This document shows positions 33,482-45,794 of a stretch of 64,000 nucleotides of DNA, piece after piece (position 1 is the first letter of the stretch; each line of letters opens with the position of its first letter). The notes beneath the pieces were generated by a model. It saw only the letters and a list, made by a program, of their open reading frames with translations. It ran no database searches and had not been told where the DNA came from. Location: the NCBI RefSeq assembly GCF_023973145.1, contig NZ_CP099546.1, positions 868,001-932,000 on the forward strand, read 5' to 3'. Origin of the DNA: Natronosalvus vescus (GTDB lineage: Archaea; Halobacteriota; Halobacteria; Halobacteriales; Natrialbaceae). The position numbers were made by a program, and so were the translations under genes.

Positions 33482-33772
33482 ATGGTTCCCAAACCGGCGT
33501 ATTCGCGACGACGAGTACTTGGATTGACGGGAGTGACACTGACAGCGCTCATTGCGGGTTGTGGCGGCCCCGGTGAAGAAGAAGGCGCTGACGATCCGGC
33601 AGAGGATCCAATCGATGAGGAAGAGCCGGCGGAAGAGGAAGAAGAGGAGGAAGAAGAGGAGGAAGAGCCGGCGGAAGAGGAAGAAGAGGAGGAAGAGCCG
33701 GCGGAAGAGGAAGAAGAGGAGGAAGATCCGGCGGAAGAAGAGGAAGAAGAGGAGGACGAGGAGGACGCATAA
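33482..33772 (+). CDS. Polyglutamate-repeat Tat lipoprotein
   Basis: A 96-residue protein. The first 27 residues form a Tat signal with a lipobox (YSRRRVLGLTG ... IAGC, Cys27), the same length and layout as both cupredoxin lipoproteins. The mature protein is almost only Glu, Asp, Ala and Pro: four blocks of P-A-E then a run of Glu, in near-identical 30-bp DNA units (33660-33735). With no other domain, it probably forms a highly charged tether on the cell surface, perhaps binding cations. The repeat length may vary by slippage. Function unknown. Confidence 0.75.
   Translation: MVPKPAYSRRRVLGLTGVTLTALIAGCGGPGEEEGADDPAEDPIDEEEPAEEEEEEEEEEEEPAEEEEEEEEPAEEEEEEEDPAEEEEEEEDEEDA
33600..33745 (+). 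repeat. Tandem PAE(E)n repeat coding DNA
   Basis: Four imperfect 30-42-bp units beginning GCCGGCGGAAGAGGAAGAAG encode the Glu-rich repeats. They are in frame with the lipoprotein and made of GAA/GAG triplets. Confidence 0.7.
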
Positions 33773-42403: not shown

Positions 42404-43894
42404 TCACTCGAGCGACTCGAAATCGGTCGTCAGATCCAGCACTCGCACGCGGTCGGGAACGTCCTCGAGCACGGCCGCGGGCCAGTCGCGATGGCCCAGC
42501 GTGAACGAACTGTCGGGATTCGCCTCGACCAGCCGTCGGACGCCGGTGGCGGCCGCTTCGAGCGCCGACCGATCCTGGTGCTGTGGCACTTCCGCAGAGA
42601 GCGGATACGTTCGCGAGAGCGCTCGTGGAAACGGCCCGAACGGGGGACGGACGCGCCAGGAGGCGTCGTAGCGCTCGTCGCTCGAGGCGTCGCCCTCCGT
42701 GAGAAACACCGAGTCGGGAACGGCGAGGCGCGCGAGGCGCTCGTGGTGGCGCACCACCTCCGGCCGGTTGGCGCTCTCGTGAGAGGTGTAAAAGAACGCA
42801 CCCTTCGAGACGGGGTCGGTGCGCTCGAGCTGGTCGGCGTGGGCGAGCAGGGCGCGGTAGCCGTCGAGCATCGTCGGGTGCGAACGGGCGCGCTGTTCGA
42901 CGAGTTCGAGGAGGCGGCCGGCACGAATAGCCTGTTTGATCCGGCGGATTTCGGCGAAGCTGACGTGGAGGTTGTGCCGGGCGAGAGCGGTTTCGCGGGC
43001 GTCGTCTGGCATCGCACGGATGTCGTCGACGTCGTGGCTGGTACAGACCGGACACGGGCACGGGAGATACTCCAGGTCTGCGAGATGCTGGGTACCGCTG
43101 ACGGTCAGATACCGGTCGTCGCGGGCGTACAGCGCGTAGGCTGCCGAGTCGAAGAGGTCACAGCCCATCGCGACCGCCAGCGCGAACATCATGGGGTGGC
43201 CCGCCCCAAAGAGGTGGACGGGCGCATCGGCGCCGAGCCCGCGTTTTGCGGCCGCGACCGCGTCGACCATGTCGTCGTAGCGGTAGTCGTTCATCATGGG
43301 AACGACGGCGCCAATCGGGAACACGTCCAGCCCGGTGGCGTCGGCGTGGCGGCCGGCTTGCTCGCGCAGATCGGGGTACGTCGACCCCTGAACCGGCGCG
43401 TTGACCAGCATCTCACCCGTGTCGACGGTCTCGGCGATTTCGAGGCGTTCCTGGGTGGTCTCGAGGTCGGCTTCTGCGCGCTCGCGGTCGATGTCTGGCG
43501 GGGTTGGGATGTCGACGGGGGTGCCGATGTCCGAACCGATATCGCGCTGGAACTCGAGGATCTCTTCGGTGGTGACGCTGATCTCACCGTATTCGGAGAG
43601 CTGGAACGAGCCGGAGTCGGTCATGATCGCCCCGTCGAAGCCGAGCAGGTCGTGGAGACCGTCCTCGAGGGCGCGCTCGCGGACGTCGCTGCTGTTGTAG
43701 ATGATGTAGGCGTTCGTGATCAGGATCTCCGCGCCGAACTCCTCGCCGAGTTGCCCGGGTTCGATCGTATCGAGGTGGGGGTTGATCACGGGCAGGAGGG
43801 CGGGCGTTTCGACGGTGGTGTCGGCGCTGGGGACGGTGAGGTCACCGAGGCGGCCGGCGGCGTCTGTCGCCCGGATTTCGAAGCACTCGCGCAT
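42404..43894 (-). CDS. tgtA: tRNA-guanine(15) transglycosylase (archaeosine pathway)
   Basis: A 496-residue enzyme that exchanges guanine-15 of tRNA for preQ0, the first step to archaeosine. The TIM-barrel domain has [26 protein letters not shown], the substrate-binding [36 protein letters not shown], and the zinc-binding [13 protein letters not shown] with His downstream. After about residue 340 there is an additional C-terminal domain, but the PUA part of some archaeal enzymes is not clearly present. It may lie in a separate gene. Codon use is typical. Confidence 0.95.
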
Positions 43895-44147
43895 CGCTCG
43901 AGTGTTAGTGAGCGTGGCGGTAAACGTTCCGTTCCCAGCTGTCAGAAACGCAATCTTGGAATATGCAAGCGACGAACGGATCCGTCGGTGGCGGCACCTA
44001 CGTCCGCTGTGTCCGCCGGTTTATTCAAAAGCAAACTCGTGAATCTGGCATTATCGGCCGTTTCAGGTCTCAAACCTGTGGTTTTGTCCAAGAAATACTG
44101 AAACAGTCGGCTTCATTTACCCCTGTTCCCGGGATAGCTTCGGAGGC

Positions 44148-45794
44148 ATGGTTTCACGACCGCACAAGCTTAGCGTCATATTCGTTGCCCTGGTAGTCGC
44201 CCTCGCTGGCGGCCCTGCACTGGCGGGTGCAGCGGCGGGCACAAGTGCGAACGATGACACTGAGTTCGGAGACGTGAGCGTAACGATTGAAAATGTACAG
44301 GTCGAGTCCCTCGAACTCGAAAACGTCACACTCGAGAACGTGACGATTGAGGAGCTCAACGTCGAAGAGCTGAACATCGAAGACGATGAGCTCGAGGATG
44401 AACTCGACGAAGACGACACCGATGACGACGAGAACGGTGTCGACACCGACGATGATGAGAACGGCGTCGATACGGACGATGACGACAATGGCGTCGACAC
44501 CGACGATGACGACAATGGCGTCGACACCGACGATGACGACAATGGCGTCGACACCGACGATGACGACAATGGCGTTGGTGACGACGACAATGGCGTTGAC
44601 ACCGACGATGACGAGAACGGCGTCGACGAGCACGAAGACGAGGTAACCATCTCCGACATCGAGATCGAGTCACTCGAACTCGAGAACGTCACCATCGACG
44701 ACATCAGCTTCGAAGAAGACGAGATGGACGAGAACGGCGTTGGCACCGACGATGACGAGAACGGCGTCGACACCGACGATGACGAGAACGGCGTCGACAC
44801 CGACGACGACAATGGCGTTGGTGACGACGACGAGAACGGCGTTGACACCGACGATGATGAGAACGGCGTCGACACCGATGACGACGAGATGGACGATGAC
44901 GAACACGACGTCATCGACGAGGATGCTGACGAAGTCGTCATCGAGAACGTCACCATCGAAGAGATGAACGTCGATCGACTCACGATCGAAGAGCTGGAAA
45001 TCGAGGACGATGACGGTATCCTCGACCGAATCACCGGCTTCTTCAATGGTCTGTTCGGTGACGACGAAGAGGAAGAAGATGACAACGGTGTCACCGACGA
45101 CGATGAGAACGACGTCGACACCGATGATGACGAGATGGACGATGACGAGAACGGCGTCGACACCGACGATGACGAGATGGACGATGACGAGAACGGCGTC
45201 GACACCGACGATGACAACGATGTCACTGACGACGACGAGATGGACGACGATACTGAAACCCAGGAGATTGAAGAACTCACCATCGAAACCTTCGACATCG
45301 AAGAGTTGACCATCGAGTCGATGACCATCGAGTCACTCGAGAGCGCTGAAGACGACGAGATGGATGACGACGAGATGGATGACGACGACGGCGCCGACAC
45401 GGACACAGACGATACTGAAACCGACGATGACGAGAACGGCGTCGACACCGACGATGACGACAATGGCGTTGGTGACGACGACGACAATGGCGTTGACACC
45501 GAAGACGACGAAAACGGCGTCGACACCGACGATGACGACAACGGCGTCACTGACGACGACGAGATGGACGAGATGGACAACGGTGAGACCATCGAGTACA
45601 TCTCAGCTGGCGAGATGACCGTCGAGGACGGAACCGCTGAAACCGTCACCCTCGGTGATGCGAGCGAACTCGAGGAAGAACTCGACGATGACGACGAGGA
45701 AGACGACGATACCACCGACGACGAAAACGACACGACTGATGACGACACCACCGACGACGAAGACGATCAGGCCTCCCTGCCGTTCCTCGGCTAA
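44148..45794 (+). CDS. Secreted acidic protein alternating pentad beta repeats and DxDxNG calcium-type repeats
   Basis: A 548-residue protein with a Sec signal (LSVIFVALVVALAGGPALAGA). Two module types alternate. The first type has strands with five-residue periodicity, such as VTIEN VQVES LELEN VTLEN VTIEE LNVEE LNIED. It recurs at about residues 42-80, 166-195, 265-290, 368-398 and 480-505. Between them lie blocks of a nine-residue unit DDD(D/E)NGVDT, with 22 NGV copies in total, each containing a DxDx(N)G calcium-loop pattern as in thrombospondin type-3 repeats. The pentads resemble pentapeptide-repeat beta helices. The protein ends DDQASLPFLG with no anchor. Binding of calcium and a surface or matrix role are inferences. 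No known family name is given. Confidence 0.8.
   Translation: MVSRPHKLSVIFVALVVALAGGPALAGAAAGTSANDDTEFGDVSVTIENVQVESLELENVTLENVTIEELNVEELNIEDDELEDELDEDDTDDDENGVDTDDDENGVDTDDDDNGVDTDDDDNGVDTDDDDNGVDTDDDDNGVGDDDNGVDTDDDENGVDEHEDEVTISDIEIESLELENVTIDDISFEEDEMDENGVGTDDDENGVDTDDDENGVDTDDDNGVGDDDENGVDTDDDENGVDTDDDEMDDDEHDVIDEDADEVVIENVTIEEMNVDRLTIEELEIEDDDGILDRITGFFNGLFGDDEEEEDDNGVTDDDENDVDTDDDEMDDDENGVDTDDDEMDDDENGVDTDDDNDVTDDDEMDDDTETQEIEELTIETFDIEELTIESMTIESLESAEDDEMDDDEMDDDDGADTDTDDTETDDDENGVDTDDDDNGVGDDDDNGVDTEDDENGVDTDDDDNGVTDDDEMDEMDNGETIEYISAGEMTVEDGTAETVTLGDASELEEELDDDDEEDDDTTDDENDTTDDDTTDDEDDQASLPFLG
44412..44640 (+). repeat. 27-bp tandem repeats coding DDD(D/E)NGVDT units
   Basis: Direct repeats of a 27-bp unit (GACACCGACGATGACGACAA type) give eight nearly identical copies here. 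Similar blocks occur at 44742-44880, 45080-45240 and 45430-45560. They stay in frame throughout. Confidence 0.8.

Follow-up and report, generated by a model that had tools for sequence, protein, structure and literature searches.

Five conserved blocks and variable linkers in a probably secreted haloarchaeal protein family

What kind of protein results when short segments with a five-residue period are separated by long runs of acidic repeats, and which of the two parts is kept by selection? The question is raised by a gene of Natronosalvus vescus at 44148..45794 (+) of the window, as the whole analysed stretch of 64,000 nucleotides is called here. The reading favoured below is that of a secreted solenoid that displays a hydrated brush at the cell surface or in a matrix. 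We put this architecture and role, taken jointly, at a probability of about 0.55, and the function is a matter of inference.

Gene, blocks and linkers

The gene is complete, has an ATG start and codes for a hyperacidic five-block protein of 548 aa. Its putative Sec-type signal peptide (44148..44228, +; residues 1-27, MVSRPHKLSVIFVALVVALAGGPALAG) has no lipobox Cys and is conserved in the family, and the protein is probably secreted, as the sequence-only reading had proposed. If cleavage after residue 27 is assumed, the mature chain contains 261 D+E residues versus 2 K+R and is free of Cys. Core dN/dS of 0.09-0.21 between the window gene and four homologues corresponds to purifying selection on the block cores, and the gene is therefore real. 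A 544-aa antisense ORF (44117-45751, -) is a Ser-rich shadow of the Asp repeats.

Block 1 (44277..44417, +; residues 44-90) consists of about six pentads followed by a short acidic helix in the AlphaFold2 (AF2) model. It is separated by the Asp-rich linker 1 (44418..44642, +), with DDD(D/E)NGVDT units and no conserved sequence, from block 2 (44643..44717, +; residues 166-190). Linker 2 (44718..44918, +) leads to block 3 (44919..45059, +; residues 258-304), where pentads are followed by the amphipathic segment GILDRITGFFNGLFGD, and linker 3 (45060..45254, +) leads to block 4 (45255..45347, +; residues 370-400). Linker 4 (45348..45578, +) precedes block 5 (45579..45689, +; residues 478-514), which has a short helix at its end in the AF2 model. 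The last part, at 45690..45791 (+), comprises linker 5 and the hydrophobic C-terminus ASLPFLG; in 32 of 44 aligned family members the end is similar, with at least four of the last six residues from AVILMFG.

Hydrophobic periodicity of 5/2.5 residues was tested against composition shuffles and gave p of about 1e-4 for blocks 1, 2 and 4, about 1e-3 for block 3, and a weaker 0.02 for block 5. The linkers contain 17 DxDx[DN]G motifs, while 3.5 are expected from shuffled linkers. The alternation of five pentad blocks with acidic linkers, described before from the letters alone, was thus confirmed by ORF reading, periodicity test and motif count. On the DNA level, the linkers are encoded by a tandem array of a 27-bp unit in near-identical copies. 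Elsewhere in the window, at 33617-33765, there are tandem repeats of GAAGAG/GGAAGA type with periods of 9-42, which probably represent Glu-rich coding sequence.

The family and the fold of its blocks

By sequence comparison, the five blocks define a haloarchaeal family without an earlier description. Presence of the blocks in conserved order is its defining feature, and the window protein has them in this order. Homologues were found in 50 of 100 sampled related genomes, and in 47 of 61 within Natrialbaceae, the family of the window itself, with Natrinema, Natronococcus, Natronorubrum, Haloterrigena, and Halovivax among the named matches. Of the 293 genomes in the order, 89 had the family by profile search, which also detected weaker forms in four further families. 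Pfam gave zero matches above cut-off for the window protein and its relatives, with sub-threshold or scattered weak scores only. There was no match to the window protein in NCBIfam, no significant similarity among PDB sequences, and no description of the family in the searched literature; the sequence-only reading, too, knew of no described family with such alternation, and none came up in these four sources.

In the 44 aligned Natrialbaceae members, block lengths are nearly constant (CV 0-0.07) and linker lengths vary (CV 0.23-0.38; range 14-118 aa). The mean frequency of the majority residue is 0.68 in block columns and 0.33 in linker columns. Leave-one-out profiles placed every block correctly in 44/44 members, and the order 1-2-3-4-5 was the top of 120 permutations in 16 of 23 further relatives, 22 of which come from outside Natrialbaceae. 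Relatives outside Natrialbaceae have NET- or ETTT-type linkers. Some loci from other families (L033, L034, L104-L116) have a CARDB-like domain after block 5, with CARDB at sub-threshold level (E 0.024 in L108). Block 4 is apparently duplicated in two long paralogues of the 800-aa class (L056:10663-13107 and L057:11181-13487).

A linker-poor sister family, with ORFs of about 240-330 aa (L128-L147), is present in another haloarchaeal family (f17) and was matched to window block 1 with E 2.6e-7. Its blocks were assigned to the five by visual reading, and the permutation test does not support the assignment: the order 1-2-3-4-5 ranked 57/120 in L118.

The AF2 model of the window protein has moderate confidence for all five blocks and a pTM of 0.41, and that of a 360-aa relative has pLDDT of about 76-84 in all blocks and a pTM of 0.52. 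Strands were predicted in the blocks (pLDDT about 71-87), and linkers have low pLDDT. Residues with pLDDT of at least 50 number about 170/360 in the relative and 192/548 in the window protein. Both pTM values are near the ceiling for this number of ordered residues, and the blocks are therefore positioned relative to each other in the models; read from this pTM arithmetic, joint packing of the blocks into one discontinuous unit is suggested. AF2 is known to over-predict beta-solenoids for repeats (PMC11795689), although the repeats in the window protein's blocks have diverged and are not perfect. In Foldseek searches neither AF2 model had a PDB match, for which the long inserts could be the reason. 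The beta-helix proposed earlier is plausible, with AF2 strands and weak Pentapeptide_4 scores in its favour; the family comparison suggests one discontinuous unit in place of five separate beta-helices with stiff calcium rods between them.

The blocks could instead be independent short elements, such as interaction motifs or small beta-sheets, carried on a disordered string that has no single fold and, for example, polymerises with other copies. Blocks of merely 25-47 aa, long linkers, no known fold found by Foldseek, and tandem paralogues as possible partners agree with this explanation. Independent elements should be shuffled or lost more freely, but block number, order and identity are conserved. 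The near-ceiling pTM and the existence of the linker-poor sister family also speak against it, and we consider it rather unlikely.

Linker chemistry

Across the family, the linkers are acidic, of NxT/S-sequon type, or of ETTT type, and both their length and their chemistry are variable. Acid content and sequon density are anticorrelated (rho -0.86), in part for compositional reasons. In 16 sequon-rich members, 363 linker sequons were counted versus 70 expected from composition, an excess of about five-fold, although such counts overstate the number of independent events, since slippage can copy one unit many times. When the chemistry label was mapped on the core tree, eight changes were needed by parsimony, and at least four of these are forced by well-supported branches. 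Tandem copies fall into two old groups, and tandem paralogue pairs match in linker chemistry in 11/11 genomes, with a permutation p of 8e-4 that is somewhat optimistic, as some of the genomes are close relatives.

Two candidate causes were rejected. Gene conversion behind the paralogue concordance is unsupported, as sharing of linker 5-mers within a genome is not above that between genomes of the same class (p 0.17). Loss of oligosaccharyltransferase as the cause of acidic linkers was also rejected: archaeo_STT3 was above cut-off in 32/32 genomes, and with the N-glycosylation enzyme present in all of them, its loss does not explain the choice of linker chemistry.

Linkers could also have no selected role, being low-complexity inserts made by slippage and tolerated as halophile proteins must be acidic, with the core alone of importance. 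The almost identical 27-bp tandem units and the free variation in linker length and sequence point in this direction. Nevertheless, linkers are kept in all 44 aligned members (the shortest being 14-16 aa) and in the other families that were read. Their chemistry is concordant between ancient paralogues without significantly shared linker words, and sequons exceed composition in the sequon-rich members, all of which makes this explanation improbable.

The least probable explanation, with very little chance of being correct, is the calcium-stiffened protein suggested by the sequence-only reading. In this explanation, DDD(D/E)NGVDT units would bind Ca2+ in the manner of thrombospondin type-3 repeats or EF loops and the linkers would be rods between small beta-helices. 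The excess of DxDx[DN]G over the shuffled expectation and the bias of such motifs towards secreted proteins (PMC3123361) favour it, but 43 homologues with conserved blocks have no more than 0-6 such motifs apiece, the TSP_3 profile (PF02412) has no match in the whole genome at E<=10, loop positions 8 and 9 of the unit are D and T where an EF-hand-type loop needs a hydrophobic residue at 8, and relatives have sequon or ETTT arrays in place of acidic linkers. As far as its distribution among the sequences goes, DxDx[DN]G appears to be a repeat word of one lineage, not a family trait. Low-affinity condensation of divalent ions on the linker polyanion is possible.

Promoter element and proposed role

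A promoter element, AAACAGTC-N7-TTTAC, is located at 44101..44120 (+), with its AAC 46 nt before the ATG; the family consensus is GTAACAGTCgnctCGTTTTAgcC. In all 44 aligned Natrialbaceae members (loci L039-L071 included), AACAGTC-N7-TTTA lies 46-47 nt ahead of the start codon, with a spacing of 7 in 43 of them. The window's own genome holds one match to NWAACARTCNNNNNNNTTTAC. The exact pattern WAACAGTC-N7-TTTAS has 34 matches in 30 genomes, and comparison of each position with the listed family gene starts placed all 34 at five-block family genes; a control pattern had 2 matches. Columns flanking the element have low information, and remote families have an upstream element that looks similar and is not identical. 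Judged by its position, TTTTA may be the TATA box in front of a leaderless transcript, and the AACAGTC box would be an activator site. Weaker boxes are seen farther upstream: an AAC at a further distance of about 29 nt, a TTT, and a GAnAA.

The divergent neighbour at 42404..43894 (-) is a tRNA-guanine transglycosylase gene, which we take to be of the archaeosine type, and it is present at 29 of the 34 Natrialbaceae loci compared, as context only. A Nudix-like gene lies near 27 loci; none was noticed next to the gene at 44148..45794. Operon logic was considered and set aside, as no functional link to the tRNA-guanine transglycosylase or Nudix-like neighbours was seen.

In the solenoid-and-brush reading, the five blocks would follow one another as turns of a single, discontinuous beta-solenoid akin to pentapeptide-repeat helices, four long linkers would loop outward, and the fifth would form a tail. 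The linkers would form a hydrated brush that tolerates salt, with charge from Asp/Glu or, in sequon-rich relatives, probably from N-glycans. As neither a lipobox nor a C-terminal membrane segment is visible, the protein is probably part of a cell coat or matrix to which it is not covalently anchored. Expression would be driven by the promoter element, near-private as judged from its conservation, and read by a dedicated regulator. A brush agrees best with a secreted, extremely acidic protein whose core is kept and whose acidic or glycosylatable linkers are interchangeable. The more detailed version, in which the scaffold of a discontinuous beta-solenoid is re-coated per lineage with interchangeable brushes between its turns (polyanion, N-glycan array or Thr-rich), under a private promoter with its dedicated regulator, is more tentative and in our estimate slightly short of even odds.

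If the solenoid-and-brush reading is true, this is a widespread haloarchaeal secreted scaffold in which the core is kept and the exposed chemistry toggles between acidic and glycosylatable, a natural experiment on cell coating in brine. Through the near-exclusive promoter, the regulator and the growth condition could be sought directly.

Comparison with known systems

Thrombospondin type-3 repeats share with the window linkers Asp-rich units that contain DxDx[DN]G, but differ in that PF02412 has no profile match in the genome and the motif is not conserved in the five-block family. Head_GIN/DUF4097-type adhesin folds (e.g., PDB 3pet) have non-significant similarity (E 0.06 for the pentad core and E 1.1 for the full protein), and Foldseek matched neither the window-protein model nor that of the relative to them. 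Halomucin of Haloquadratum walsbyi is also haloarchaeal and secreted, and a water-retaining coat was proposed for it; compared by its published description, it is unlike the window protein in its 9159 aa and mucin-like organisation (PMC4378361).

Pentapeptide-repeat proteins (PF00805 / PF13599), which form a right-handed quadrilateral beta-helix, resemble the window blocks in the five-residue period, the inward-type hydrophobic positions i-2 and i, and the predicted strands. Pentapeptide_4 similarity is weak and sub-threshold (E down to 8e-4 in relatives), and a linker-poor relative matched designed PDB entries with pentapeptide-repeat sequences at E 0.03. The PF00805/PF13599 cut-off of 38 bits is not reached, the best scores being 12.2 bits for the window protein, 19.9 for a remote relative, and 18 for the concatenated core. 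At least eight contiguous repeats are usual in pentapeptide-repeat proteins (PMC8145042), whereas the longest block of the window protein has about 6-7 pentads. Position i is mainly I/V in the family blocks, with L/F at about 1-32% depending on the block, in contrast to L/F in the pentapeptide-repeat consensus. A true PF00805 protein, above cut-off and in a 517-codon open frame, is coded elsewhere in the same genome, outside the window (G000:C1:2365477-2366652). The pentapeptide helix of QnrB1 has loops of 8 and 12 residues, while the inserts of the five-block family have 14-118, so that, if the blocks do stack as proposed, the solenoid would be an unusual one, its inserts much longer than the loops on record for pentapeptide helices.
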